A stretch of 64,000 nucleotides of DNA. Origin: Salminus brasiliensis. Its lineage: Eukaryota; Chordata; Actinopteri; Characiformes; Bryconidae. Shown here piece by piece: positions 1 to 56,797 of the stretch. The notes beneath the pieces were generated by a model. It saw only the letters and a list, made by a program, of their open reading frames with translations, ran no database searches and was not told where the DNA came from. The stretch spans positions 5,872,026-5,936,025 of the forward strand of contig NC_132881.1 of assembly GCF_030463535.1 (NCBI RefSeq). The letters run 5' to 3'. Numbering within the stretch: position 1 is the stretch's first letter; every line of letters starts with the position of its first letter. Both the position numbers and the translations under genes were made by a program.

Positions 1-2238
1 AGATGCATGGACTACTGGCCATCGCCCTGACCATGTATCCCATGCGTATTGATGAGAGCATCCACACACAGCTCAGAGAGAAATACGGAGACAAGATGCT
101 GCGCATGCAGAAAGGGTGAGACACATTTGCCATGCCCAGTGCACATTACTGAGGGAGAACTGTAGAAGGTACATTCCCAAGTTACACCCACTGGACAAAC
201 TTTGAACTGATCTGTATACTTTTGTGATTTGCCTCTGTTTGGGACAGAGATCTGCAGGTGTTTGAGGAGCTGTTCAGCTTTGCCTGTCCCAAGTTTCTGT
301 CCCCTGTTGTGCCCAACTATGACAATGTCCATCCCAACTACCACAAAGAGCCATTCCAGCAGCAGCTCAAAGTGTTCGCAGAGGAGGTCCAGCAGCAGGC
401 GCAGCTCTCCACCATCCGCAGGTGTGTGTCCATCACACTTTGTTTAAGATGTTGATATTTTCTCAGAAATGTTCAGTTAAATCCTGACCTTGTAGTTCTG
501 TCATGTAGATCTCATATGTTCAGAGGCTTTAGGGTTGAGTTGGTATTCCTTCCTCCTTTTGATTTTTCATTTGTCTTTTATTGCTATTATCTCTCTAAAT
601 CTGTTTGTGTCTCCTTCAGTTTTCTGAAGCTCTACACCACCATGCCTGTGGCTAAGCTGGCCGGCTTTTTGGACATGTCTGAGCAAGAGTTTCGGATTCA
701 GTTGCTTGTTTTCAAACACAAGATGAAGAACCTGGTATGGACCAGTGGCATCTCCGCCCTGGACGGAGAATTCCAGTCTGCGTCTGAGGTTGACTTCTAC
801 ATCGACAAGGTGCGTTTATGTGTAGAGATGGTTGTAAAGATAAATAAATGTGTAATAGCTCAACAGCTGAGGTTTTTTGGCCAGTGTTGCAGTTAGTGCA
901 TAGTGCTCACTCCCATCTCTCTTCAGGACATGATCCACATTGCAGACACCAAGGTAGCCCGTCGTTACGGAGACTTCTTCATCCGACAGATCCACAAGTT
1001 TGAAGAGGTAAGCAAGGCTTTTTTTCACATGCCTTTATTGACAACCTAACTAATATACACTGGTCAGACATAACATTGAAACCACTGACACGTGAAGTGA
1101 ATAACCATTTAGTGATCTTGTTCCAATGGCTTCTGTCAAGGGACATGAGATGCATATGCATCTTAGGCAGCAAGTGAACAGTCAGTTCTTGACGTTGGTG
1201 TGTTGAAGACAGGGAAAATGGAAAAGCATAAAAAATGTAGGACGCTTTGGCAAGAGCCCTGTTGTGACGTATTCTATATGACTAGATCAGAACGTCTCCA
1301 AAATATCAGGCAGGTCTTGTGGGGTGTATGTCTTGTGAAGTCCATACCTACATGGGTCAGAGCTGTTTTGGCAGCATAAGGGGGATCCCCACAGTATTAG
1401 GCAGGGGATTATAATGTTGTGGCTGATTAGTGTGGGTGGGTAGATGGATGTTTGAACATGTTCCAGCGGTGACTTGGCCTGCTGTGGAAATGTATGGACA
1501 CTTTTTGCATGCAGATGCAGCCGTTTGCAGGTGATTTGCACTCAATCCAATCTCTTTTGGAGATTTTAGGTCTTACAATGCTTTATTTTTATATTATATT
1601 TTAATATTATATATTTAAAAAAATCTTTTTTTTTCCCTGTAGCATTAAATTATATTCCTCAGAAAACGGAGATGTCTTGTTTTAATCTCTGATTATTTAC
1701 TAACCTGTGGTCTGAACTCAAAGAAGGGCTAGAGTACAGCATAACTGGTGGACAGTAAACTAATTGTAATTGATTGTAATTGATTTCCCTGACCATATCA
1801 AACACAACTCAACATGTATTTCAAAGACACATTTTGTTTTTCTGCAATTTTCTGACTTTGACTACGTCTGATTTTATGCTAGATGTAAAAGGATCAGCGG
1901 CAGAGAAAATTTAACCAGTAATATTTTACTGCCATCTCCAACCAGCCTCCAAATGCTCATTTTCCTCAGACGCTTTCTAATGCTGTGCTTCACCCTGAAC
2001 TAGATGTCCAGCACAGCTTTGTGTCCATAACAAGCACCAGCACTCATTTTCTGCAGTTTCTCACTGCAGTTCTGCTACATCCAGACGATGGTCTTTGCGG
2101 AACGTCATGTGTTTGGAATCGAGACCAGGCTTTGACTCATCTCATCTGTCTTTGTCGTTCCAGCTGAACCGCACCCTGAAGAAGATGACAGTATCTGCCT
2201 CCTCTAGCTCCACCAGCACCACGGCACGGGCCACATAA
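1..2238 (+). CDS. eif3l: Eukaryotic translation initiation factor 3 subunit L, C-terminal exons (partial)
   Basis: These are the last five coding exons of eIF3L, a PCI-domain subunit of the cytoplasmic eIF3 complex that helps recruit mRNA to the 40S ribosome. Exons read as 1-115, 248-421, 620-809, 927-1007 and 2164-2238; each join has an AG acceptor and GT donor and keeps one frame. The translation (about 210 residues; the family protein is about 560) carries highly conserved stretches such as [62 protein letters not shown] and [26 protein letters not shown]. The 5' part lies outside the window. After NRTLKKM the protein has a Ser/Thr-rich tail of about 16 residues ending ARAT, unlike the short end I recall for mammals. 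The last intron carries a transposon remnant. Identification is from remembered family sequence and is firm. Confidence 0.96.
1055..1433. mobile_element. Tc1-type non-autonomous element in last eif3l intron
   Basis: The two ends are imperfect inverted repeats: left CACTGGTCAGACATAACATT, right end reading CACACTAATCAGCCACAAC on the opposite strand, next to TA-rich flanks. The interior resembles the ends of the Tc1-like family whose decayed transposase lies at 46842-47215. No open frame survives, so it is an internally deleted derivative. Confidence 0.75.
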
Positions 2239-2660
2239 AGCCCATCACCTCATCAGCAGCGCCTCTGATACTCCTCCAGCCATCTGGACTTGGTTTCCTG
2301 GAGAGTCACAGAGTAGTAGTGATCATCATTAGGGTGACGGGTGGCCTTTGAACACTCTACCACTCAATGATGATCCATACCCTGTGAAGCTTTGGGTGAA
2401 ACAGGCCAGAAAGTCCAGCGGTCCAACTCTGACACTGACTAACTTATCAGGGGCAAACCCTTTTTTTTTTTCCCCCTCACAGATGAAGCAGATGTGGTCT
2501 CTGCCCGGCTCTTCTTCAACCAGAGGCCAGTCTGAGCCAGTTTGCGTGTGGCTTAATTCTCTATTCATGAACCAAACCGGGCCAATTGCATTCATCCTGA
2601 AGCTTTTTTTTATGTAGGTTTAAGAAGACGAATTAAAGTTGATGTGGTGAAAATACTGCT
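2239..2660 (+). other. eif3l: eif3l 3' UTR with poly(A) signal
   Basis: Non-coding sequence after the eif3l stop. An ATTAAA hexamer at 2632-2637, followed by a GT-rich stretch (GTTGATGTGGTG), is the likely cleavage signal. The end coordinate is an estimate. Small open frames here on both strands have no protein-like character. Confidence 0.7.
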
Positions 2661-3020
2661 TGATGTTTATTTCTCCAATTTTCTTTCGGAAAAATTTCAG
2701 GCTGCTTTTTATATACACACCAAGGATTGGGTTATACTTTGATGCAGTGGTGAGGAGCTGGTATTTGGGTCATTTTGGATCAAAGGTGCATTAAATTTCT
2801 TAGCAGTTAATGAGGTCTACAGAAGTCCTGCAGAGCTTCAACCTCATTGTTCAAACACTAGAGGTCACTACTTACCAACATCCTGTCAGCAGTGCTGAAG
2901 TGCCAGCTTACTGTACATCAGGCTTCTCCCAGGTCTAGCATAGGTTACATAGGTCTCATTGCTCTGTTGTCTATGAAGGCTCTTTTTCATGCGTACTGGA
3001 GCTGAAATATAGGTGTTGCA

Positions 3021-3168
3021 TATTACATTTATGGCATTTAGCTGACGCTCTTACCTTGTAAGTGGCTCTGGATAACTCTTATTACAGAGGTGGGTCAGTG
3101 TAGTGTTGGGAGTCTTGCCCAGGAGTCAAACCAACATGGTGTGGCAGGTAGTGCCACACCAACCAACA
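3021..3168 (-). mobile_element. tRNA-derived SINE fragment (GTAAGTCGCTCTGG tail family)
   Basis: It contains the tail ATTTATGGCATTTAGCTGACGC and the body seen again at 25405-25628, 25738-25865, 35671-35878 and 37128-37302. It is on the minus strand and diverged, lying between eif3l and dact. Confidence 0.7.
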
Positions 3169-3479
3169 TATTCATACATGTAGTTTGGAAGAAGGTTGTA
3201 TGTCCCATTTATTCACATTCTGCTCGTACATTTAATAATCATTTGAATAATATTAGTCATACTCAATAAAAACTGCTGGTCCGTCACTCCCAGTGTTCAT
3301 GATGGGTCAGGTCTGTCAAGAAAATCAGCACCATTGGTTTGTAGTGGGCAATCCAGTTTGAATGAATGTATGTGATTAAATAAATGGCGTGTAGATATTG
3401 CCATGAAGGGACCTGTGAAAGTGAATAGCACTGTGATGGTAATATATGCAAGTCTGGCAAAAAGCTGTTGCTGTAGCAT

Positions 3480-3665
3480 TAAAATCGATGGATCACTTTA
3501 TTGATCCCAGAGGGGGAAGGTCAGGCATTACAGCAGCAAACAACCAGTGAAAATAGCTTTAATACAGAGCAGATAGAAATACAAGCCTTTCTTATATACA
3601 GTGAAATGTGATAAAAAATATAGTATAGTTAAATATATATGAATAAATAAATCAGTGAGGGAGTG
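3480..3665. repeat. Dispersed fish repeat with 'CTTTATTGATCCCAGAGGGG' core
   Basis: The phrase at about 3496-3515 is the terminal part of a repeat very common in teleost genomes and followed here by AT-rich sequence. No coding remains are visible. Class is uncertain (LINE-related or SINE-like). Confidence 0.5.
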
Positions 3666-3767
3666 GTAAAGGTATGTTTATAAATATTAGTGTTATTAGT
3701 GGCTTTACTGCATTCTCATATTTACAGGCCGTTTTCCCTCATTGTGAGCTGTGAGTAGATTCAAAAA

Positions 3768-4235
3768 AGAGTCGATTCTTGATTCAAGGCGATTGAAAGA
3801 GCTAGAGAGTCGATTCCTGATTCACGGCGTTTGAGAGAGCTAGAGAGTCGATTCCTGATTCACGGCGTTTGAGAGAGCTAGAGAATCGATTCTTGTTTCA
3901 AGGCGTTTGAAAGAGCTAGAGAGTCGATTCCTGATTCAAGGCGTTTGAGAGAGTTAGAGAGTCGATTCCTGATTCACGGCGTTTGAAAGAGCTAGAGAGT
4001 CGAATCCTGATTCAAGGCGTTTGAGAGAGCTAGAGAGTCGAATCCTGATTCAAGGCGTTTGAGAGAGCTAGAGAGTCGATTCTTGATTCACGGCGTTTGA
4101 GAGAGCTAGAGAGTCGATTCTTGATTCAAGGCATTTGAGAGAGCTAGAGAGTCGATTCCTGATTCAAGGCGTTTGAGAGAGCTAGAGAGTCGATTCCTGA
4201 TTCACGGCGTTTGAGAGAGCTAGAGAGTCGATTCC
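3768..4235. repeat. 38-bp minisatellite, 12 full units, upstream of dact promoter
   Basis: The unit runs GAGTCGATTCCTGATTCA then CGGCGTTTGAGAGAGCTAGA. The GTCGA/ATCGA anchor recurs at 3771, 3809, 3847, 3885, 3923, 3961, 3999, 4037, 4075, 4113, 4151, 4189 and 4227, so every step is exactly 38 bases. Units differ only by scattered substitutions (ATTC/AATC, CGG/AGG). The array ends about 420 bases before the dact start codon. Confidence 0.95.
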
Positions 4236-4289
4236 ATGCGGATCATGTGATGTTTTGAGTTGGGCAGCCCGACTCACTCCTTTCCAGGC

Positions 4290-4654
4290 GACGGCACATC
4301 CCACACGACCGTCCAGGGAAATGTGGGTGTGGCCTCGACACACCCCACGTTAGTGTCCAGCGAAGTGTGGGCGGGGTTACGACTACAAACCAACGGCACA
4401 CCCAGTAGTAACGTTTAGGGGCGTTGCATGTGGGTGGAGCTTACCGCCACAGCTTGCCCTTCGCCTGGCCAATGACTATTCTGTGCTGGGTGTTGTGGGC
4501 GGGGCTCACGGTGAATGTAATCAGTGTCTCACACACGCACAGTGGTTTCGGCTGGAGTTCAGTGTTATAGGCTTCCAGAGAGCTGAGAGCTGAGAGCTGG
4601 GGCTGCTGGATGTGTCTCCTCGTCTCTGGATGATGTGAACTTTATCTTGAGAAA
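4290..4654 (+). promoter_or_regulatory. dact promoter and 5' UTR region with GC boxes and CCAAT box
   Basis: This block is GC- and CpG-rich compared with its surroundings. It has GGGCGGGG at 4369-4376 and 4497-4504, CACCC/GTGGG-type KLF/SP motifs around 4324-4350 and 4430, and GGCCAATG at 4467-4474 (CCAAT box). No clear TATA box is visible, which fits a GC-rich developmental promoter. The transcription start is not determinable, but GAGCTGAGAGCTGAGAGC at about 4578-4596 is probably in the 5' UTR. Confidence 0.65.
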
Positions 4655-7600
4655 ATGCTGAGCAGAAAAGTAGCCGGAGCCGAGCTGCTGAGCGCGGCTG
4701 CGGGGGTAGACCGCGGCCGGGTGGGGGAGAGGCTGCAGGCGGCGCTGGCCGGGCTGCAGGAGCTGCACCTTCTGAGGGAGAAGCAGAGCGACATGGTCCG
4801 CTGGGCGCTTCGGATGGACAAGGAGAAACCAGTCAGCTCTCCCCCTGTGAATACAGACCGAGACTCGGACACGAACAGCGAGGAGCAGCGGCTGGAGGCA
4901 ACACTTACTGCCCTTAAACAGCAACTGGTGAGGAAGAGCCCCTCATTTAGCTGGGTTTGTTGTTTTCTGAGTACACATAAATGCATGTAATGTTGTTCAG
5001 AGGGGCGTGAGGGGATAATAACACATAAATACACACTTTCCTGACATGATTTTTATGAGAAAGTGATGTTTGCTTTTTAATTCCGGTCCACCTTAAATCG
5101 CGCAGCAGTTACACTGTAGTGGCCTCAGAGGCGCTCCATTCAAACGACCGCGGTTTTTAAGGTGGAACTGAGAATTAGATCATTTTGATCACGTTGAGTT
5201 TTTTTAATCTGACACCAGTTCTGATACTCTGCTCAGGTTGTTTTTCGGTAACTGGAGATGGTGAAGGCTCATAAATCAATGTTCACTGTAGGGGGCTTGG
5301 GGGATGGGCCAGGTGGTGGGGGGGGGGGGTAGTTTCCGTCTCTGATGATTAACCCAGTTTAATGAGAATGGCCACATTGAGCTGACCCGGTTGGCCGCAC
5401 GGGTTTGACCTCTCAACGCCCCTTAGATGAGGCTTGAACCTTTTGTGCACTCCGGACATTAAGAGGAAGGACGCCCCCTTGGTTAAATTCCAGATTTCAA
5501 CCAATTCAGTTTTACTTGTGTAGCAGTTTTCCCAGAAATGAGGGTCCAGACCCCTGAGGAGCACATTAAACAACCACCGGACTGACCAGAGGCACCCAGA
5601 GGATACCAAGTGTCCTGTCTAGTGCACTAGGTAGGGAGTCAAGTGGAAGGCTTCCAGAGGGCATGTCCTGTTAGATGGGTTCAAGCATTAGGCATTAGGC
5701 CTAATGAGCATGTTTATGTATTAGTGTAATGCTTAGCTTTCAGAGGCATTAAATACTATGGATGCTGTTAATGGATCTAAGTGGAGATAAGGAACCGATA
5801 AGGAACCGACTACATACTACATCCAGATCCTGGGTTACTGAGAGCAGTAATTCAGTCATGCAGTAACTACTGGTGTTTATAGCCGAGATTAAACCTGCTA
5901 AAACACAGCTGGCTATAGTCAGTATGTGGCATCCAGGGGTTACGGTCGGATCACTCCGGTTCAATATTTGGCTTGGTCTTGTGTTGCCTTGTGTTTGAGG
6001 ACACAATGGCCAGTGGTTCTCTGCGGGGGAGATGAGTAAACCTACAGCACTGCAACCCCCCGGGCAATCCCTTGTCCTTGCTCGGTTAATGGTCAACTAC
6101 ACTCCCTCTTTCTTCTTTCCGTCTTTCCTTCCCCCTGAACGTCGTATAACTGCAGGAGACCTATGTCATTCATTAAAGATCTCTAAGCATCTGGTTCCAT
6201 TGTTTCCTCCTTTCACCAATAGACTGTTTAGGCCTAGATATGCAGTACTTTCAAAGTGGGGGTTTATGTCATTCATGACTGACCTAAGTTAGTAGACCAG
6301 GTGTCATCAGTTCTGGTCCAGCACTGTTTGGTGGTTTCCCTGCTGTAACACATGGTGTGTATGAGCAGGAGAACTGTGCTAGACCGGGGTGGCCAGTCCT
6401 GGTCCAGCAGGGCTGGATTTCTGCACAGTTAACTCCCCTATTAAATGCCAGGTTTGGTAGATCTGTTAGGGGAGCCGGGAAATCGGCAAACTGTGCTGGA
6501 ATCCGGAATCCAGCCTCCATTGCCCATCGCTGGTCTTGATGGTAACACCCCCATCCTATATTATAGTACCCTGGTTGTGGAATCCATAAGGAATCACAAG
6601 GCAGTGACCAACATGTATGTCTTTTGTCTGTAGACACGTCTCCGCAGGCAGGATGTCGGACTGAAGACACATCTGCAGCAGCTGGATCAGCAGATCAGCG
6701 AGCTCAAACTGGACGTGTGTAAAGCTTCTGCTGAACACTTGGAGAGTGACAGCAGACCAAGCTCAGGTGGGCACCAGGAGACACAAACATCACATGCAAG
6801 CACAGAGATCCACACTTCACACTTAATCTCCTCACTCTTGTAACCGGCCTATTTGTCTAATAGTCGTTACTGAATGTTAGGTCTCAATATTAACAAGCCT
6901 GGGGTCAAGAGGTTAAATGCAGAACTGGTTTACTCGCTGTTCCTAATGCTGGACTTTTCTTTCTTTAGGATTTTATGAGCTCAGTGATGGTGGTTTGGGC
7001 TCATTGTCCAATTCCTGCACATCTGTCTACAGTGAGTGCCTCTCCTCCTCGTCCCAAGCCAGCTTACTGCCACTCTCCTCGGGTCCCTCTGCTCCCCACA
7101 TTGTTCTCGGTCACGGTCAGGCTGATGTCTCACGCCGACGTTCCGCGGATGAGTCCACAGCTCAGTCAGATGCTCCACGAGGGCTGGGAGTGAGGCTGGG
7201 AAGCAGCGGAATACGTACAACTTCTGTCAGCTCAGAAAGAGCCAGACAGAGACCTGTCTCAACAGGTGAGTGTGTGCATGTGCCATGTGTTGAGCCTTTA
7301 ATCCAGTGGTATTCTATGCTGGTGTTTCCAAATCCAGTCTTCTGGGACACTCCCCCAGTCCTGTTATATGCTTTATCAGTTCCCATGGTACCTGGTACAG
7401 AGCAAAATGTGGATCGCCAGGAGGCCCATAAAGACTGGATTGGAAAATCTTCTTCTGTGTAATTACAGTATAACTGGAGTGTCGTTTTTTGTAGAAACTG
7501 GAAGTGTACTTGCAGCTTAGAAGTAATGGGGTACAAGAAATTTTGCCCCAAAAGATGGTTGGGCTAAAAGCTCAACCAATATGTCTTACTACTAGAGCTG

Positions 7601-10132
7601 TGTCCACGAACATTCGGCCAAAATGTGGGGCGTTAGAACCTTTGCCCAAAATCTCATCCAATATATCTTACTATTAGAGCTGTGTCCACAAACCTTTGGC
7701 TAAAATGTGGGGTGCCTGAATTTTTGCCCAAAGGCTCATCAATACGTTTCACTAATAGAGCTGTGTCTACAAACCTTTGGCCAAAATGTGGAGTGCCAGA
7801 ACTTTTGCCCTAAGGCTCATCAAATACATTTCACTACTAGAGCTGTGTCCACAAACTTTTGGCTAAAATGTGGAGTGCCAGAACTTTTGCCCTAAGGCTC
7901 ATCCAATACGTTTCACTACTAGAGCTGTGTCCACAAACTTTTGGCTAAAATGTGGGGTGCCTGAATTTTTGCCCAAAGGCTCATCCAATGCGTTTGGCTA
8001 GAGAAGAGAAGAGAATTTTGGTAAAAAAAATGTAAGGACACTTTTCAGTGCATTCCTATAGGAGTGTTTTGGCTGCAACAGTTTTGTTTGGACGCTTCCT
8101 GTCCAAATACTATTGCACCTATCCAAAAGCTGTATACAAGGCCTCATTTATGCTTATGCTGTGTGTAAAGTATAGTCAGTGCAGTCTTGCTCATTCTTTT
8201 TGTTTCTCGTCCAAAATTACAGGTGATCTTGACAGAGTAATCAGCCCTGGTTTTGGATACTGCAAGCCTGTTGAACCGAAGACCTCCACCTTTTGCAGAA
8301 ACCTCTGCAATCCCACTCTGGACCCCAAATATCAGAGCAACCTTGTGTCCCGTAATGGTGCTGAAGTATACCGCTACCCCAGCCCCCTGCACGCAGTGGC
8401 CCTGCAGAGTCCCATCTTCTCGCTCAGTGGAGATCAGGAAGCGTCTGTCGGCCCTGAAGCCCAAGAGAATCACACCGAAGTGGGACTTGCTGAGGAAAAT
8501 CTTCCCAAGCAGGACTTATCTGCTCCCAGACCTGTAGGCTACATTGTCAAACTGGTTCAGCGCAGTTCCAGCAGGATGAACCTCCAGCGAGAGATGAGTA
8601 CTGAAAAACTCCATATTTCCTGTAGTGATACCCAGAGTCATGGACTAGTTGGACCCAGAGCTCAAGAAGGGAACTATGCTGGACGTGTGAGTGTTCCTGA
8701 AGTGCAGGGTGTCCAACAGCAGAAAACGGTATACTCTGAGAACGCGGCAGAGGCCGGAAAATATTTACCACTGAGAAATAGCGGCCAGGAGCAAGTGAAC
8801 TTGATTAGGGATAGGTTAGAAGAATCCAGCCAGATGTGCCAGTTTCAGTATCCAGCAAGTGCAGCAAACCACAAAGCTCCTGTAGTGATGGGTGCTGTGA
8901 TCAAAGCCCGAGAGAAAGCTGAGGACAAAAAGCAGAGTGTTCAGTTTCCCCATAAAAATAACAATGACTTTAAGGGTGTATCCGTGGTCTCGAGGCCTTC
9001 GGAGAGCAGGTTTAGCCTGATCTCCAGCAATGACGAGAACAGGAGCAGTGATGGAGGTCATACTCGGACGGGGAACTCTGAATTTGTCCATGCACAGTTT
9101 GTGCCAGCAGGGTCGCAGAGGGTGAAGGTGCATCAAGAAGACAAGAAAACAAAAGCTGTGAAGCTTCGGAAGAGGAGTAATGAGAAACCTCTAGGCAGGA
9201 AGCACCAGCAGAAGCACTCCTCTCGAGAGCCGGAGAAGGACCGAGGGTGCGGGGTTAAAGCACGTGGAGATCGAGACTCCAAGCAGATCAGTGCAGAAAG
9301 AGAGAGGGCTGACGGTCGCCTTCCAGAGGCCCGGGTTCGATCTTGCTCAGAGTCCAGTCTTCTGGGAGCTGGCAATTCTTGTAGTGCTCATCTTCAGTCC
9401 AATCAGCCCCAGCAGAAGTCTAACAAGCTCCGCAAGGCCCAGTTACCAGATCTGGGCAACGCTTCCCAGTGCCAACTCCGAAAGAAACAGAACTCTCGAA
9501 AGTGGCCCTCTGCCTCCGAGATCCAGCTCCCCACTCACCCCGTGTCAACCCACTGCCAAAGGTCCAAGGAGGCACCTACCCACAGACTCCCACAGAAGCC
9601 AGGCATGCCACGAAGCGTTAGCATGAGACCCCACTCGGGTCATTGGGGTGGCCTTCCTCATCCACTCCAACCCACTCTCTCTTCTTCCTCCTACTTCAAC
9701 AGCATGAACTTCAGATACCCACCGGCGCCTCCTTCTACTCGCTACCCACCGAGGTGTGAGTCCGAGTTCTCAGAGTACTCGGCCGAGTGTGCCTCCCTGT
9801 TCCACTCCACCATCGCGGAGAGCAGCGAAGGAGAGCTGAGCGACTTCACAACCAACCGCTTCGGGGACAGCGAATCCAGCCAGGAGTCTCGGACCGCCTC
9901 CGACTCGGACAGCAGCCTGTCCCTTGACGAGGACGATGTTCTGGAAGAAGAGGAAGACGAAGGAGGTCTGGTGTGGGCTGAGGCAGCGGTAGGCCCAACA
10001 GCAGCTGGGCTTTCCCTGAAGCAGCATCCCCAACCTGAGCCGGTGGCATGCCGCATCAAGGCCTCCAGAGCTCTGAAGAAGAAGATCCGCCGCTTTCAAC
10101 CAGCTTCACTTAAAGTCATGACCTTGGTGTAG
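4655..10132 (+). CDS. dact: Dapper/Frodo family Wnt-signalling regulator (dact; paralogue not resolved), complete
   Basis: Dapper proteins bind Dishevelled and tune Wnt/beta-catenin and planar-polarity signalling in the cytoplasm. Exons 4655-4927, 6634-6766, 6969-7265 and 8223-10132 join in frame (phases 0, 1, 1) to 870 codons plus stop, with consensus splice sites throughout. Visible family features: an N-terminal helix ([14 protein letters not shown], about 29-42); a leucine zipper at about 80-118 ([26 protein letters not shown]); the signature [14 protein letters not shown] with [16 protein letters not shown] (about 131-165); [20 protein letters not shown] near 270-289; GYIVKLVQR; a basic middle; [16 protein letters not shown] near 750; an acidic run near 803-815; and C-terminal [10 protein letters not shown] with PDZ-ligand MTLV. 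The start ATG follows a GC-rich promoter. DACT1-3 as I recall them end MTTV, so MTLV may mark a dact3/dact4-type teleost paralogue. Family assignment is firm; paralogue is not. Confidence 0.94.
4928..6633 (+). other. dact intron 1
   Basis: Donor GTGAGG, acceptor TTTTGTCTGTAG. It holds a G-run near 5320-5330 and a weakly repeated phrase (GTCCTGGTCCAGCAG type) around 6310-6410. Open frames here are short and have no recognisable product. No strong repeat array is seen. Confidence 0.6.
7541..8005. repeat. 82-bp tandem repeat in dact intron 3, about five units
   Basis: The anchor AGAGCTGTGTCCAC recurs at 7594, 7676, 7757, 7839 and 7921, steps of 81-82 bases. Each unit also contains AAAATGTGGGGTGCC and TTTTGCCCAAAGGCTCATC. 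The open frame at 7707-7895 is produced by the repeat and is not a gene. Confidence 0.92.
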
Positions 10133-10765
10133 ACCTCCTGTCCAGATTGGGTCAACTGCTTGCAGTATTTTTTTTGTTTGTTTGTTTGTTTAGAGACTCT
10201 CAGGAGTGTTTCCCAAACCCTGGTCCTGGTGTACTCCTGGTGGATTTTCCCAGCACTATTAAACATGCACATTGATTCAGGAATTGCTTGTTAATTAGAG
10301 CAGAATCAGGGAAGACGCCAAAACGTGCAGTGCCACGATTAGGAAGCGTCCCTAATTGTGCAAATCCTTGAGAATGACTGATGCTATGTCCAGCATAATG
10401 TACAATTCTCACCTCAGCTGGTGTAACTCTACAGAACTCAGCACTGGACTCCTATCCATTTACCTTACAACCCAAAGACTATTGTGTTTGGCTTTTAAAT
10501 AAAAACAAAGGTCCTAAAAGTGAATGGGAATGTCTAAATGCAGAATGTACACTGTAATTATTTTTAGTATTATTTTTTGCATAGATCACCAAAACATTTC
10601 AGTTTTAATGGACTACGATCCTCCCTGTATTTTTTTTTTATTATTTTTTTTTTCTGTTCTTCAAAAGTCATTCTTTTGTGTAACTGTGTTTTGCACATTG
10701 ATTTCTAGCTATGCATCTTACTCTCTTTGCAAAATAAATGCTATTTAATATTCATAGTTTTGTCT
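10133..10765 (+). other. dact: dact 3' UTR with two poly(A) signals
   Basis: AATAAA occurs at 10498-10503 and again at 10733-10738, the second followed by T/GT-rich sequence (TTTTGTCTGTGG). T-rich tracts at 10169-10193 and 10628-10653 are typical of a 3' UTR. The second signal is the likelier main site. Confidence 0.6.
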
Positions 10766-10839
10766 GTGGTCTTCCATTGCCTCCTCGGCCTTCTGAAGAA
10801 CAGTGGCTGTTTTTACAAGCCAAGATTTTCTCCCATCCG

Positions 10840-11000
10840 ACTGAATTCATTTAATTCCAGTTCAATACAGCTTTTTTATACAGGTCACAAAGCAGCTTTA
10901 CAGAGATCCGGGTCCGAGCCGGTGGCAACAGTGGCAAGGAAAAAAAACTTGAAGAAACCTTGAGAGGAACCTAGATCCTCCTCTGGTCGACTAATAAGCA
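10840..11000. repeat. Dispersed teleost repeat (GTGGCAAGGAAAAA core)
   Basis: The phrases CAAAGCAGCTTTACAGAGATC, GGCAACAGTGGCAAGGAAAA and CTTGAGAGGAACCTAGA are a familiar high-copy fish repeat. It starts about 100 bases past the dact poly(A) site. Class not determined. Confidence 0.5.
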
Positions 11001-11240
11001 AAACAGGAAAAAACAACAACAAACAAAAAGTGAATTAAGAGAAAAGGTAAATGTGCCGTCAAGCCAAAAAGATGAAAACATGAGTGAGATGATAAAGTCC
11101 ATGCACGCATAGACCTGCAGCGAGGCCCTAGAGCAGGAATCCATCATTCATTCTGATTATAGACTCAGACTGCAGGTAATCTGATCCAAAATCATGCACT
11201 TAGTCTACACGCTACCCTGACCAATCACATCACTCGAGTC

Positions 11241-11378
11241 CAGTCAGAGACGTTCTAAATGAGGAGACCGGCCACTGGTAGAAATAAGAATGGGAGGTCA
11301 TGTAATGCTCATCATGGCGTCTGTTTACAGGTAGTCCCGCCTTTCAACAAAATGAGCCAATCAGCTTGCTGGTTACAC
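11241..11378 (+). repeat. Dispersed repeat R1, copy 1
   Basis: It runs from CAGTCAGAGACGTTCTAAAT to AATGAGCCAATCAGCTTGCTGG. The same order of phrases occurs directly at 11932-12098 and inverted at 16366-16528. Confidence 0.85.
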
Positions 11379-11931
11379 TGCCACCAATGTCATCAGTTAT
11401 TTTTTTATTTTTTTAATTAGTTATTAAATGGTTATTTGACCTTTAATTTCCAGTAGTTTAGTCTCTCCCCGTTCGTAAAGCTAGAGGCCCAATCTCGTAC
11501 CAGTGGAAATAACTGTCCAGCGGCGTTGCAACGATGGCTGCACAAGGACTTCAGTCCAGTCTAAATAAGAGGAGCAGCAGTGTGTTCCTGAGTTTTCGGG
11601 TGATGTTGGACGAGAGGACGAGGTCGCGTCCTGCAACTTTCCGAGGCACATGAGCTGGATGCCAGTCCCACCGCCGATAACATGAGGGTGAAACCTCTGG
11701 ATGAAAGTGCGCAGTAAAGACTGGTGGGAGAGAGTCGTGCTAAAGGGAGTCACAGACTTTTATTTGAGCTATATCCGTACGACACCAGCAACTTGATGAA
11801 AGATTGCCTTGCCCTCAAAGAACATACAGAAGAGCCTCTATGCCAGTGCGTGGCTGTTACTCTTCTAATTAACATACTATTTAAAAGATGACCCACCTTT
11901 AGTTGGATAGAAATTGTGTTCAGAATGGCCT
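11379..11931. other. Segment between direct R1 copies
   Basis: GC-richer than the flanks, with broken open frames only on the minus strand (11481-11753, 11750-12058). It may be transposon interior, but no family motif is recognisable. Confidence 0.3.
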
Positions 11932-12098
11932 CAGTAGTCAGAGACGTTCTAAATGAGAAGCCCGGACACTGGTTGAAATATGAAATATGAATGGGAGGTC
12001 TTGTAACGCTCAACATGTGCGTCTGTTTACACACATAACGTTTAACAAAATGAGCCAATCAGCTTGCTGGTTATGCCGCAAGTGGAGAAACACCCCCC
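11932..12098 (+). repeat. Dispersed repeat R1, copy 2
   Basis: It shares AGAGACGTTCTAAATGAG, GAATGGGAGGTCTTGTAACG, CGTCTGTTTAC and AATGAGCCAATCAGCTTGC with copy 1. It extends further (CAAGTGGAGAAACACCCCCC), matching the inverted copy at 16366-16528. Confidence 0.87.
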
Positions 12099-13050
12099 AC
12101 TAGTCTATTTTGATTGAGGTGTATACGGCCTATTGAGAATTTAAGTGCATTTAAGTAGGAAAAGATTTAAACCCTTAAACTTTAGATCCATTAAACTGAA
12201 TTATCGTTTATTACAAATTGAATCAGAGATTCACACAATATTACAATAAAAGATTTGACAAATAATGAATATACTGTTGATTGCCGGGCCAGAGGAAGTG
12301 ACATCACTGAGAGTGTTTTTTTAACAAATGTAAGAGTTGACCTGAACATTGGGACTAGCATAAGATATATTTTTAATTAGTAAAATCATATAATTTACAT
12401 AGATATTCTCTGCAACTGACTTCCTAACTGTTAATAGACTCAACACAAAAATCCTAAAAATTAGACTTTACTATTTCATGTCAAATTCAAGGTGAATGTC
12501 TGAATCAGGAGGTGAAGACAGTCAATAATGTGTGTGATGGGAGTCATTTAGTTATTTATTTGTGTACAATTTGTGCCTAAAGGATGCAGCAAGCATTATT
12601 AATAGTGCAAATTTAATGTAATGTGTATTTTCAATAAAGATTTTATTGGAAGACGCATGTACACTGTATGTGGACGTGTTCGATTCCGATTGAGCTATTA
12701 GTTGGATTCCTAACGGACGATCAGGTTGCATGTAAACGTGGCTAATGAGACACTATTGGAGGCAGTGAACATGTATATTTATGGCCTCTTTTACTGCTGT
12801 ATACAGCACTGAAGGGCTCAACCCGTGCAATAGTTTATCTTGCAGACAATTAACCCACATAAGATGAGCAGTTGATGAGGTTTCTAAGGCCATTTGCACT
12901 GAATGACCTTGCAGGCAGATGCATTATGTGTGCGAGAAGAGCAATAAAACACACCCATATGTAAGAGACGAGGTGTGAACAAGCCAGAGTACGTTGTAAA
13001 GTTGCACCTTAAGCCCTATTCAGATTGGATTATTTTATCACGTCTTTGCA
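12099..13050. other. AT-rich non-coding stretch
   Basis: No gene, array or recognisable element except a short transposon-end-like phrase around 12660-12745 (GGATTCCTAACGGACGATCAGG, CATGTAAACGTGG). It directly precedes the dact-tail segment. Confidence 0.4.
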
Positions 13051-13077
13051 CGTCAGCTCAGCGATAAAACTTTCCAG

Positions 13078-13119
13078 CGCTTTCAGCCAGCTTCGCTAAA
13101 GGTCATGACACTGGTGTAG
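13078..13119 (+). CDS. Orphan copy of the dact C-terminal 13 codons plus stop; candidate terminal micro-exon
   Basis: The 42 bases encode [13 protein letters not shown] and a TAG stop, identical in protein to the end of dact at 10091-10132. The two DNA copies differ at six bases (CAA/CAG, TCA/TCG, CTT/CTA, AAA/AAG, ACC/ACA, TTG/CTG), all synonymous. The copy follows ACTTTCCAG, a plausible splice acceptor, which would start an exon in phase 0; in dact only exon 1 ends in that phase. No other dact sequence is seen within about 2 kb upstream, and similarity fades within about 10 bases past the stop. It could be an alternative last exon, the tail of an otherwise lost tandem duplicate, or an exon of an unmapped gene. 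The similarity itself is certain; that it is used is inference. Confidence 0.55.
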   Translation, partial: RFQPASLKVMTLV

Positions 13120-13181
13120 AGCTCCAGTCTACTTTACATAGTTTTCATTTTATATATATATAAAAATATTTCTCATTTGAC

Positions 13182-13523
13182 CCCATTTGACCCAGTTTGG
13201 AAGGCCAATTATCTAATTCCCATTCATGTAAACTCCCCTAGTCTCCAACATTAGGAGGGTAAAGACTAGCACATGTCTCCTCCAACACATGTGAAGCCAG
13301 ACCTCCTTTTTTCAAACTGGCAGTTTGGCAGAAAGCCCGGCTCCCCAGCTCCGATACTGACCACATTTGGTGCTGACCAACATCACACTAGGAGTGATGT
13401 TGGGAGGAAGGGCCATCTACCCACCCCTAGGAGAGCAAGGCCAATTGTGCTCTCCCAGACTCTGGCTGCTGATGGCGAGATCGTAGAGGCAGTGGTTTAG
13501 TCCACTGGACCACTCGGAGCCCC
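13182..13523 (-). mobile_element. tRNA-headed SINE (GAGTGGTCCAGTGG head)
   Basis: Read on the minus strand it starts GGGGCTCCGAGTGGTCCAGT, whose TGGTCCAGTGG fits a pol III A box. It continues with GAGAGCACAATTGGCCTTGC and ends near AATTGGCCTTCCAAACTGGG. The same body recurs at 45195-45545, 47331-47590 and 48780-49075. The open frame at 13273-13500 is a by-product. Confidence 0.8.
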
Positions 13524-13684
13524 TACATTACATAGCTGGCCATATTCAAAAGCCTCTGGACGTACCTCTGTCCTGTAAGTTTGAATACTGTACTTTCTCT
13601 GCTCTAATGCTGCATTGGGTTTACCTCGGAAGTCAGATGTTACAGTTCTAGTTCACCACAACTGGTTTGACAATCATTTACTGG

Positions 13685-13990
13685 AGTTTTATGGTGAGTC
13701 TAACCAAAATATGTCCTATCCTGGTCAGTGTTTTTAGCATTGCCCCAGGTTAGTGTTGTTAGCCTTGTCCCAGGTTAGCACTGTTAGCTATGCAAGTTGA
13801 TAAGAACACATTATACGGTATTTTGCGCATCCAAACATCATGAGTACAACTGATTTAATGAGACTCACAGATAGAAGTGCTAATAAACTGTGGAATACTA
13901 CTACAGCCTTTACTACTGCTGATGATGTGCGGTGCGGCCATCTTGGATTCTGAACTCCGGGTTGGTGAGGCATCCCAGCTGGGATTTCCA
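13685..13990 (-). repeat. Inverted-repeat arm, partner of 15075-15320
   Basis: On the minus strand this reads CCTCACCAACCCGGAGTTCA, then AATCCAAGATGGCCGC, TTAGCACTTCTATCTGTG and GGACATATTTTGGTTAGA. The same order appears on the + strand at 15075-15320, where its last part has expanded into the 85-bp array. Confidence 0.8.
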
Positions 13991-14069
13991 AGAACTTCTC
14001 TGAGTGGTAAGTTCTCTCTCCTCCTGCTAACACAGTTCATAGTATTATAGAATGAAGTACTCTCACATA

Positions 14070-14565
14070 CACTACATGTCCAAATGTTTGTGGACATCCC
14101 TTCCAATGAATGCATTCAGCTACTTTAAGTTGCACCCATTTCCAACACTGATGTGCAAATGCACACACAGACAGCTTGTCTAGTCCTTGTAGAGAAGTAC
14201 TGCCAGTAGAATAGGACTCCCTGGAGCAGATAATCATGGACACATTGGCGCCATGCCTTATTCCAGGTGTGGGCTAGATGGGTATAAAGCCACCCAGCAT
14301 TGAGCGGTGGGGCGGAGAAATGATGGTGCTCCGTCCAGTAGTTTTGGGATAAGTTCGGGATGAGGTGGGGTGATGATCGTCCAACATCCTGACCTCACTA
14401 ACACTCACAGCAATGCTCCTCCTCCAAGATCTAGTAGAAAGTCTTCTTCTCTGGATGGTAGAGATAGTTACTCCAACAAAAGCAGCATAAACGCTCTTTA
14501 ATATCTCTGATTTAAGAAGAAACAAGGAATGAGCAGGTGTCCCAATACTTTCTGTTCATATAGTG
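14070..14565 (+). mobile_element. MITE with CACTAYATG...TTTGTGGACA termini, copy 1
   Basis: The left end CACTACATGTCCAAATGTTT and the right end, reading CACTATATGAACAGAAAGTA on the other strand, form terminal inverted repeats with a shared GGACACC. Related copies lie at 19764-20210 and 54599-55030. This is a Tc1/mariner-type non-autonomous element common in fish; it lies in the loop between the inverted arms. Confidence 0.8.
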
Positions 14566-15074: not shown

Positions 15075-15320
15075 TGTGTGGTTTCCTTTTTGGCAAGTCG
15101 TGAGAGCCTCACCAACCCCTAGTTCAAAATCCAAGCTGGCCGCTCCGCACATCAACGGTAGTAAAACCAGTAGTATTATACAGTTTTTTAGCACTTCTAT
15201 CTGTTTGTGTCTTAAAATTAAATCAGACACACAGTACTGTTTTCATAGGACAACGCTAACAGTGCTAACCTGGGGCATAAACAGTGGGACATCATTCAGT
15301 TAGATTTACCATAAAAAAAC
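15075..15320 (+). repeat. Inverted-repeat arm, partner of 13685-13990
   Basis: It carries CCTCACCAACCCCTAGTTCA, AATCCAAGCTGGCCGC and TTAGCACTTCTATCTGT, in inverse order to the partner arm about 1.1 kb away. Its 3' part is the founding unit of the neighbouring tandem array. Confidence 0.8.
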
Positions 15321-16262
15321 AATTCTAATCTGAGACAATGCTAACAGTGCTAATCTGAGGCATAAAAAGTGGGACATAATTCGGTTAGATTTGCCATAAA
15401 AGAACAATGCTAATCTGGGACAATGCTAACAGTGCTAATCTGAGGCATAAACAGTGGGACATATTTTGGTAGATTCCCTATAAAAGAACAATGCTAATCT
15501 GGGACAATGCTAACAGTGCTAACCTGAGGCATAAACAGTGGGACATATTTTGGTCAGATTCCCTATAAAAGAACAATGCTAATCTGGGACAATGCTAACA
15601 ATGCTAACCTGAGGCATAAAAAGTGGGACATATTTTGGCTAGATTCGCCATAAAAGAACAATGCTAATCTGGGACAATGCTAACAGTGCTAACCTGAGGC
15701 ATAAAAAGTGGGACATATTTTGGCTAGATTCGCCATAAAAGAACAATGCTAATCTGGGACAATGCTAACAGTGCTAACCTGAGGCATAAAAAGTGGGACA
15801 TATTTTGGTTAGATTCCCTATAAAAGAACAATGCTAATCTGGGACAATGCTAACAATGCTAACCTGAGGCATAAAAAGTGGGACATATTTTGGCTAGATT
15901 CGCCATAAAAGAACAATGCTAATCTGGGACAATACTAACCTGGGGCATAAAAAGTGGGACACTATTCGGGTAGATTTACCATAACAGAACAATGCTAATC
16001 TGGGACAATGCTAACAATGCTAACCTGGGGCATAAAAAGTGGGACATATTTTGGTCAGACTCCCCATAAAATCTGGGATAATGCTAACAGTGCTAATCTG
16101 AGGCATAAAAGTGGGACATAATTCGGTTAGATTTGCCATAAAAGAACAATGCTAATCTGGGACAATGCTAACAGTGCTAACCTGAGGCATAACAATTGGG
16201 ACATATTTTGGTCAGATTCCCTATAAAAGAACAATGCTAATCTGGGACAATGCCACCAATTT
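15247..16262. repeat. 85-bp tandem array, about 12 units
   Basis: The anchor GACAATGCTAACAGTGCTAAC recurs about every 84-86 bases (15249, 15334, 15419, 15503, 15588, 15672, 15758, 15843, 15928, later 16160 and 16246). Units also share GAGGCATAAAAAGTGGGACA and CCATAAAAGAACAATGCTAA. Two units near 15928-16075 are shortened. It is non-coding. Confidence 0.95.
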
Positions 16263-16365: not shown

Positions 16366-16528
16366 GGGGGTGTTTCTCCACTTGCAGCATAACCAGCAAG
16401 CTGATTGGCTAATTTTATTGAAAGACGGGACTTTATCCGTAAACAGACGCCATGTTGAGCGTTACAAGACCTCTCTTTCACATTTCAACCAGTGTCCAGG
16501 CTTCTCATTTAGAACGTCTCTGAGTGTG
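16366..16528 (-). repeat. Dispersed repeat R1, copy 3 (inverted)
   Basis: GGGGGTGTTTCTCCACTTGC, AACCAGCAAGCTGATTGGCT and TTCTCATTTAGAACGTCTCT are the reverse complement of copy 2, phrase for phrase. Confidence 0.87.
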
Positions 16529-17639: not shown

Positions 17640-18417
17640 AGTCCCAAAAAGGCCCAGTTTGGGTCAATCAGCACCAGCAAGGCACAGATCTACCAGCTTC
17701 TGGAACACCACTGTCCACCATGGACTGAGAGGCCGCCATCCAAGAACGAAGCCCTGCTTCAGTCATGACTAGTTTGCAGCTGATCAAACTGACAAAGAAA
17801 ATACCTTCCAGAGAAAGAAATATGACCACATGAGGCAAAGATTACGTTGCTTGGCCATAATGAGTGGAGGTATGTTTGGAGAAGTAATTCAACCTCAAGG
17901 CATTCAAACCCAGGAACACTGTACTAACTGTTAAGCATGGTGGTGGGTGCATCATGCTCTGGGCCTGTTTTGCTGCCAGTGGAACTGCTACATTGCACAA
18001 AGTGGATGAAATAATGAAGAGAAAGGACTTCCTCTGAATTCTTATCTTTAGCATAACCTCAAACCATCAGCCAGAGGGTTCAAATTGGACACAACTGACC
18101 GTCCCAGCAAGACAATCAGACGACCCCAAACACACATCAGAGGTGGCTGTAGAATGGAGACAGCAGGCTAACATTAAACTTTTGGAATGGCCTTCCCAAA
18201 GTTCAGACCTCAACCCTATTGAAAACATGTGGACTGTGCTTAAAGGTCAGGCTCGTGCCAGAAAAACAACCAATTTAATTAAACTCCAAGAGTAGTGGTG
18301 AAATATCCATCCAGAAGCTTGCTGGTGGCTTTCAAACACATCTGGTCAAGGTACAACTGGGTGGAATCACCTAAAGCAGTGGTGAGTGTCTGTAAACTTT
18401 TGACTACAACTGTAGGT
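17640..18417 (+). pseudogene. Tc1-like transposase pseudogene
   Basis: In shifting frames the + strand encodes typical Tc1 DDE-family phrases: KHGGGCIMLWACFAASGT near 17934, DPKHTSEVAVEWRQQ near 18125, and SDLNPIENMWTVLK near 18209. Stops and frame breaks prevent a full protein; for example, the run after LIKLQE ends in a stop. The right end TGTAAACTTTTGACTACAAC at about 18390-18412 resembles a Tc1 terminus. Confidence 0.88.
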
Positions 18418-25657: not shown

Positions 25658-25729
25658 TGGAGATGCAGGGGATTGAACCCTGGACCTCATACATGCAAAG
25701 CATGCGCTCTACCACTGAGCTACATCCCT
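25658..25729 (-). tRNA. tRNA-Ala (anticodon UGC)
   Basis: The minus strand reads as a 72-base cloverleaf: acceptor AGGGATG/CATCTCC, D arm GCTC-AGTGGTA-GAGC, anticodon arm CATGC-TTTGCAT-GTATG with anticodon TGC, T arm CAGGG-TTCAATC-CCCTG, discriminator A. A- and B-box sequences (TAGCTCAGTGG, GGTTCAATCCC) are intact. The T stem pair A-T keeps base pairing where the usual tRNA-Ala, as I recall it, has C-G. Base 1 is A opposite C (usually G-C), a mismatch. A run of five T follows about 20 bases downstream on the minus strand (AAAAA at 25633-25637), suitable as a pol III terminator. It is flanked by SINE copies, so it may be an active gene or a mildly decayed one. Confidence 0.88.
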
Positions 25730-25737
25730 TCTCCTAC

Positions 25738-25865
25738 ACTATGCTGCGCTACACCAATAAGAGTCCTTGGGCCAGACTCTTAACACTACATTGGTCCACC
25801 TTTGTAATGCGAATAACCTTGTAAGTCGCTCTGGATAAGAGCGTCAGCTAAATACCATAAATGAG
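25738..25865 (+). mobile_element. SINE tail copy (+)
   Basis: GCTACACCAATAAGAGTCCT, TTGGGCCAGACTC, CATTGGTCCACC and TTGTAAGTCGCTCTGGATAA are the forward version of the minus copy on the other side of the tRNA. It ends AAATACCATAAATGAG. Confidence 0.78.
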
Positions 25866-55315: not shown

Positions 55316-56797
55316 AAAGCAGTGCACACCCCAGAACCCTAAATGTAGTGAAAAGGGCATTTTGTAGGTCATTTAGTAGTGGTGGAACCTCAGAGTAGTG
55401 TACTATGTAGTGAAAATGGCATTTTGTAGGCCATTTAGTAGTGGAGGAACCTCAAAGTAGTGCACTATGTAGTGAAAGGGGCATTTTGTAGGTCATTTAG
55501 TAGTGGAGGAACCTCAAAATAGTGCACTATGTAGTGAAAGGGGCATTTTGTAGGTCATTTAGTAGTGGTGGAACCTCAAAGTTGTGCACTACGTAGTGAA
55601 AAGGGCATTTTGTAGACCATTTAGTAGTGGAGGAACCTCAAAGTAGTGCACTATGTAGTGAAAGGGGCATTTTGTAGGTCATTTAGTAGTGGTGGAACCT
55701 CAGAGTAGTGCACTATGTAATGAAAAGGGCATTTTGTAGGTCATTTAGTAGTGGAGGAACCTCAAAGTAGTGCACTATGTCGTGAAAAGGGCATTTTGTA
55801 GGTCATTTAGTAGTGGAGGAACCTCAAAGTAGTGCACTATGTAGTGAAAAGGGCATTTTGTAGGTCATTTAGTAGTGGAGGAACCTCAGAGTAGTGCACT
55901 ATGTAGTGAAAAGGGCATTTTGTAGGTCATTTAGTAGTGGAGGAACCTCAGAGTAGTGCACTATGTCGTGAAAAGGGCATTTTGTAGGTCATTTAGTAGT
56001 GGAGGAACCTCAGAGTAGTGCGCTATGTCGTGAAAAGGGCATTTTGTAGGCCATTTAGTAGTGGAGGAACCTCAGAGTAGTGCGCTATGTAGTGAAAAGG
56101 GCATTTTGTAGGCCGTTTAGTAGTGGAGGAACCTCAGAGTAGTGCACTATGTAGTGAAAAGGGCAGTTTGTAGGCCATTTAGTAGTGGAGGAACCTCAGA
56201 GTAGTGCACTATGTCGTGAAAAGGGCATTTTGTAGGTCATTTAGTAGTGGTGGAACCTCAAAGTAGTGCACTATGTAGTGAAAAGGGCATTTTGTAGGCT
56301 ATTTAGTAGTGGTGGAACCTCAGAGTAGTGCACTATGTAGTGAAAAGGGCAGTTTGTAGGTCATTTAGTAGTGGAGGAACCTCAGAGTAGTGCACTATGT
56401 AGTGAAAAGGGCAGTTTGTAGGCCATTTAGTAGTGGAGGAACCTCAGAGTAGTGCACTATGTCGTGAAAAGGGCATTTTGTAGGTCATTTAGTAGTGGAG
56501 GAACCTCAGAGTAGTGCACTATGTCGTGAAAAGGGCATTTTGTAGGTCATTTAGTAGTGGTGGAACCTCAAAGTAGTGCACTATGTAGTGAAAAGGGCAT
56601 TTTGTAGGCTATTTAGTAGTGGTGGAACCTCAGAGTAGTGCACTATGTAGTGAAAAGGGCAGTTTGTAGGTCATTTAGTAGTGGAGGAACCTCAGAGTAA
56701 TGCGCTATGTAGTGAAAAGGGCATTTTGTAGGTCATTTAGTAGTGGAGGAACCTCAGAGTAGTGCGCTATGTAGTGAAAAGGGCATTTTGTAGGCCC
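55316..56797. repeat. 62-bp minisatellite, 24 units in perfect register
   Basis: Each unit reads approximately AGTAGTGCACTATGTAGTGA, AAAGGGCATTTTGTAGGTCA, TTTAGTAGTGGAGGAACCTC, AG. The GGGCATTTTG anchor runs from 55355 to 56781, which is exactly 23 steps of 62. Variation is limited to single bases (GGTCA/GGCCA, GCAT/GCAG, GTAG/GTCG, AAAG/AGAG); some variants recur in alternating blocks. Confidence 0.97.

Follow-up and report, generated by a model that had tools for sequence, protein, structure and literature searches.

The dact2 gene and the second copy of its 3' end

The window analysed here is the whole stretch of 64 kb, and all coordinates are positions within it. On its forward strand lies a gene of the Dapper family (PF15268), whose four exons encode in our gene model an 870-residue protein. 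The coding part of exon 1 (4655-4927, PF15268 match) comprises 91 codons, ends in phase 0 and has the donor CTG/GTGAGG; exon 2 (6634-6766) and the long exon 3 (6969-7265, 297 bp) both end in phase 1 and were placed by a PF15268 search of the assembly together with the gene model, as was exon 4 including the stop codon (8223-10132), which reached an E value of 8.7e-148 in that search. Upstream of the gene there is an exon with a match to PF10255 (Paf67) at 615-830, probably part of a gene that we take to be eif3l, and self-blast revealed tandem arrays just 5' of dact2 (3768-4235, spacing 38 or 76 bp) and in its intron 3 (7566-7995, units of ~82 bp).

We assigned the gene to dact2 on its membership in the Dapper family, its four exons, its long exon 3 and its presence as a single copy. 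A long exon 3 is given as a Dact2 trait in PMC4236578, where at most one Dact2 per species is reported; the length of exon 3 and the single occurrence thus fit the Dact2 type of that paper. The same source describes smoc2 as always lying near dact2 in teleosts; no SMOC-type Pfam domain was detected in six frames of 10133-40135, the only part of the window scanned for this synteny, which is therefore unconfirmed. According to PMC4236578, the leucine zipper lies in a conserved segment that begins at the end of exon 1, takes in exon 2 and reaches into exon 3; the zipper region of Dact1 is both necessary and sufficient for dimerization (PMC4236578, PMC3141656).

The end of dact2 is found a second time ~3 kb downstream, in the same orientation. 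Positions 13078-13119 agree with 10091-10132 in 36 of 42 bases, and the six differences are all silent, the 13 residues and the stop codon being identical; this direct comparison bears out exactly the coordinates, frame, peptide with stop and silent differences reported in the initial annotation. The local alignment obtained by blastn within the window extends over 52 bp (44/52 identical, E 3e-11) and pairs the last 13 codons, the stop and 10 nt of dact2 (10091-10142, forward strand) with the duplicate at 13078-13129 (forward strand), which was also recognised by translation and by a genome-wide pattern. After the stop codon 8 of 10 nt are identical, and the similarity then falls to background level. 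The upstream edge is sharp and lies at a CGC codon: in 10-base bins counted from this codon, 9, 9, 8, 8 and 8 of 10 positions agree, against 4/10 in the bin directly before it and at most 5/10 in each later bin. Upstream of the copy its reading frame is open for 26 further codons only, which are not dact2-like, and the match of the copy itself to PF15268 (positions 801-817, 16.1 bits, E 3.3) is below the cut-off.

A search of the assembly for other dact-tail copies had also been proposed. With the degenerate 35-base pattern TTYCARCCNGCNWSNYTNAARGTNATGACNYTNGT and up to two mismatches allowed, matches in the 1.07-Gb assembly were found at the gene and at the copy, two places in all, and no third tail of this kind turned up; the reversed pattern, used as a control, was found at none. 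Viral contigs gave no exact match to a tail pattern limited to TCN for serine and to CTN for the first leucine.

Origin of the copy and the surrounding DNA

The PF15268 search of the assembly, in which 55 of 58 candidates were scored, returned 18 stretches at E values up to 10. Four of them belong to the window gene (C4) and four to a dact1-like gene (C10); two dact3-like genes account for three stretches on C16 and one on C13, and loci on C19 and C1, taken for dact4 and dact4r and having no MTxV tail in the fetched stretches, account for two each; the others were one weak match on C8 and the copy itself. Paralogues were named by sequence features and PMC4236578 and not by a tree, and one dact2-type gene was present among the scored candidates. 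The other three PDZ-tailed genes, dact1-like and the two dact3-like ones, end in RFRSGSLKLMTTV, RFRTGSLKVMTTV and RFRSGSLKVMTTV; their tails read RFR[ST]GSLK[VL]MTTV and differ at 4 or 5 of 13 residues from those of gene and copy, which have QPAS and MTLV in common, and another dact gene was thus discarded as the source. Since only the window gene has the same 13 residues, the origin of the copy from dact2 can be regarded as established, in line with the duplicate of the dact C-terminus named in the initial annotation.

The tail of dact2 (10120-10132) reads MTLV where that of gnathostome Dact1, 2 and 3 is given as K-L/V-MTTV (PMC4236578), so that the penultimate residue of the PDZ ligand is altered in gene and copy alike. 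In this lineage the leucine is thus probably a derived state, and because the copy has it as well, the duplication is probably younger than the change from MTTV to MTLV. Translated frames were scanned for a second tail (last eight residues plus stop, up to three substitutions, a setting that a more decayed copy would escape) in the 9.5-9.8 kb that follow the tails of the dact1-like gene and the two dact3-like genes, and none was found (0/3); a single three-mismatch match, in L022 on the other strand, was taken as chance. As far as this motif scan sees, the dact genes of this genome do not commonly have a duplicated tail, and a family-wide feature was discarded as an explanation.

When the full dact2 protein was compared with the window by tblastn, the four exons and the tail (14/17 over 13066-13116, E 0.005) were recovered, and the rest of the matches had E values of 0.75 or worse (0.23 when 1-4600 alone was searched). 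The suggestion that the copy is the last exon of a second dact copy is accordingly left unproven, no dact2 remnant besides the tail being found in the window. Pfam searches in six frames of 10133-40135 (E up to 0.05), which exons without a Pfam domain would escape, gave transposases only, namely a DDE_3 match near 18.1 kb and a second one that stayed under its cut-off; taken with the tblastn result, this places the copy where no other gene is recognised. The DDE_3 remnant (18128-18286) is presumably Tc1/mariner-like.

Pieces of a dispersed repeat begin 57 nt after the stop codon of the copy (13177-13524, forward strand); 13177-13237 and 13373-13452 match 45.5-45.2 kb and others match 47.3-48.9 kb, all on the other strand. 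That the copy itself is a high-copy repeat was not supported, as its pattern occurs at two places only and no other match over the block was present in a 124-kb sample; a 121-bp query matched itself alone, in a search so insensitive that it also missed the gene tail at 85%. Inverted-repeat ends of a small transposon, of at least 16 nt, were absent from 12400-14200, and no Rfam family was detected at the copy at gathering thresholds. The pair 11242-11375 and 11936-12073, considered as a yardstick for local duplication and then dropped, proved to be part of a dispersed repeat of ~140-160 bp with three copies 82-85% alike (11241-11381, 11936-12097 and 16366-16526), as the inverted third copy shows. 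Self-blast also displayed a tandem array with units of ~85 bp at 15248-16260, 2 kb downstream of the copy, and another with units of ~62 bp, 92-96% alike, at 55343-56796; a tRNA gene or tRNA-like element at 25658-25729 (reverse strand) lies near an UnaL2 LINE 3' element at 25808-25861 (forward strand), both by Rfam.

Silent differences and splicing signals

The initial annotation had argued that random changes would mostly alter the protein, which is true: six random substitutions in 42 bases would all be silent with P ~1e-4 (8e-5 to 4e-4, by transition bias). This null is however the wrong one, since the branch leading to the gene accepts silent changes only; if the gene is constrained and the copy neutral, and the differences number six in total, the peptide is left unchanged with P ~0.003 (0.0023 to 0.0049 over eight settings). 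These P values are post hoc, the copy having been singled out for looking silent-only, and the evidence for selection on its peptide, past or present, is moderate. Duplication from dact stood, the selection proposed along with it was reduced to a hint, and the copy may have been under coding descent or peptide selection during part of its history. At synonymous sites the divergence is high (6 of 10.2, JC dS 1.16), which would agree with an old copy that selection has maintained; had the duplicate run past the stop at this silent-site divergence, the 8/10 identity seen there would have a P of 0.037. The small size of the block and the similar identity after the stop argue for a discrete duplicate and not for an old one kept by its codons alone. 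In the same segment the dact3-like genes on C13 and C16 show 6 base differences, 4 of which leave the encoded residue as it is; the other 2 share one codon and its residue is replaced.

Splice sites were scored with an untrained position-weight model, and the scores that follow are to be read as approximate. The proposed acceptor ACTTTCCAG (13069-13077, forward strand), which had been called plausible and of phase 0, does precede the copy and its phase fits exon 1, but it is weak (-3.6), 37% of the AGs in the window being as good. Two acceptors upstream both score 1.8, one with the exon start at 13062 and the other, in phase 0, at 13057 (13038-13056, forward strand; 6% of the AGs in the window as good). 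For comparison, scores of 2.7 to 5.8 were obtained for the three real dact2 acceptors, and of 6.9 and 7.7 for the two scored dact1-like ones; the donor of exon 1 is in the top 0.3% of window GTs. One yUnAy motif was found in 12981-13078, the branch-like TTTAT, with its A at 13037, 20 nt upstream of 13057; both 13057 and 13062 lie between this motif and 13078. The spliceosome scans from the branch motif, and would reach 13057 and 13062 before 13078. A further AG lies within the copy (exon start 13087, score 1.3), but its use would remove the first residues.

Only one of the three dact2 donors, that of exon 1, matches the phase of the copy; splicing of exon 2 or 3 to 13078 was discarded, as it would read another peptide, out of frame. 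Exon 1 joined to the copy at 13078 gives 104 residues in the gene model, in agreement with the size first predicted, and 111 when joined at 13057, the 21 nt so added not being dact2-like. Cryptic donors in exon 4, which would give a near-whole protein with a new 3' UTR, are possible and unsupported, the best in phase 0 scoring 2.8-2.9 (8686, 9988 and 9970) vs 5.2-8.5 for the real ones. A TATAAA, which is a weaker variant of the poly(A) signal, is located at 13159, 40 nt after the stop of the copy, and a short 3' UTR may end near it; the first AATAAA after the copy, at 13882, is in a repeated stretch. An isoform made of exon 1 and the copy would lose most of the leucine zipper, given that the zipper segment continues through exon 2 into exon 3 (PMC4236578). 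In the parts of the literature covered, no description of a duplicated dact2 tail or of such an isoform was found, which is not a claim of its absence from print.

Readings of the duplicated tail

The explanation that we prefer, tentatively and with considerable doubt, is that the copy is a short partial duplicate of dact2 and, most likely, a fragment without use. Of the dact2 3' end, 52 bp (13 codons, the stop and 10 nt) were copied ~3 kb downstream into DNA without a recognised gene, and the six changes would have arisen partly in the constrained gene, where silent ones alone survive, and partly in the free copy; the latter would not be spliced into any mRNA, and the silent-only pattern would be luck, noticed for being silent-only. 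This is favoured by the small block with its sharp 5' edge, by the identity after the stop (8/10), close to that of the codons (36/42), by the weak acceptor at 13078 with two better AGs upstream, by the repeat 57 nt after the stop and the AATAAA at 13882 in a repeat, and by the lack of any other dact2 remnant above chance in the window and of a doubled tail, by motif scan, in 9.5-9.8 kb behind the other three PDZ-tailed dact genes (0/3). Against it stand the six silent differences out of six (P 0.0023 to 0.0049), the intact stop and 13 residues, the start of the block, which directly follows an AG and fits the phase of exon 1, and the TATAAA at 13159. The copy is like a partial pseudogene, being short, isolated, among dispersed repeats and without other dact2 exons, and unlike a neutral one in that all its changes are silent (P ~0.003). 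Its 13 residues and stop are those of its own dact2 tail, the C-terminal PDZ ligand (motif 11g in PMC4236578), from which it differs by having no attached protein, the 26 open codons upstream not being dact2-like.

It is less probable, and in our opinion unlikely, that the copy serves as an alternative last exon, exon 1 of dact2 being spliced to it at 13078 or, with the stronger signal, at 13057. The product, of 104 or 111 residues, would consist of the N-terminal segment, the start of the leucine zipper and the PDZ ligand MTLV, without exons 2, 3 and most of 4; such a mini-Dact2 could be a rival of full-length Dact2 in binding to the PDZ domains of Dishevelled, with its peptide maintained by purifying selection. 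Such use would account for a peptide and stop that survive six silent changes (P ~0.003 if the copy is neutral), and agrees with the sharp edge right after an AG, the phase 0 shared with exon 1 and its strong donor, the branch-like motif 20 nt upstream of the 13057 acceptor and the TATAAA at 13159; however, 13078 has a weak acceptor, a start at 13057 would bring in 21 nt without resemblance to dact2, the copy is in phase with only one of three dact2 donors, the isoform would lack most of the leucine zipper, and a longer 3' UTR would be largely repeat DNA. The duplicate itself is genuine and unusual; it may or may not be used as an exon, and we know of no transcript of it. Somewhat more doubtful still is the fuller proposal in which the copy is conserved as an alternative last exon and yields a competitor isoform of 104 to 111 residues, its ligand peptide kept while its codons drifted; if the copy is spliced, a Wnt/PCP regulator would gain a mini-isoform with the Dishevelled ligand and without the other binding regions, that is, a natural competitor.

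In its arrangement the copy resembles tandem duplicated exon substitution events, among which C-terminal cases are enriched (77/236; PMC9741552), in having a homologous C-terminal segment downstream, in the same neighbourhood and orientation. Unlike those events, which are described as giving distinct homologous regions (PMC9741552), it encodes an identical peptide, and it corresponds to only the final 42 coding bases of an exon 1,910 bases long.

We consider it improbable that the copy is what is left of a second dact2 that was once complete (or of a dact2 3' half), whose silent changes would date from its time as a working gene, all but the tail having then been deleted too recently for decay. 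The high silent divergence (6 changes at about 10 synonymous sites, JC dS 1.16) without any replaced residue would suit such a relic, as would the dact3-like genes on C13 and C16, which also have 6 differences here, 4 in silent codons and 2 in one replaced codon; but a single dact2-type gene came out of the assembly search (55/58 candidates scored), at most one Dact2 per species is reported in PMC4236578, and exons 1-3 and the rest of exon 4 have no remnant above chance in the window. A role at the DNA or RNA level outside translation (a regulatory site or an exonic-enhancer-like motif) would fit the continuation of similarity beyond the stop codon, but is very improbable, as codon differences that are silent only are not predicted by DNA-level constraint and no Rfam family is present at the copy at gathering thresholds. 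The probability left after these four readings goes to things that we have not thought of.

If the copy is an unused fragment, as we prefer, it serves as a warning: when the null takes account of the constraint on the parent gene, a constrained coding tail copied with silent changes only becomes less surprising by a factor of ~8 to 27, the naive and the constrained null being compared at the same transition bias.
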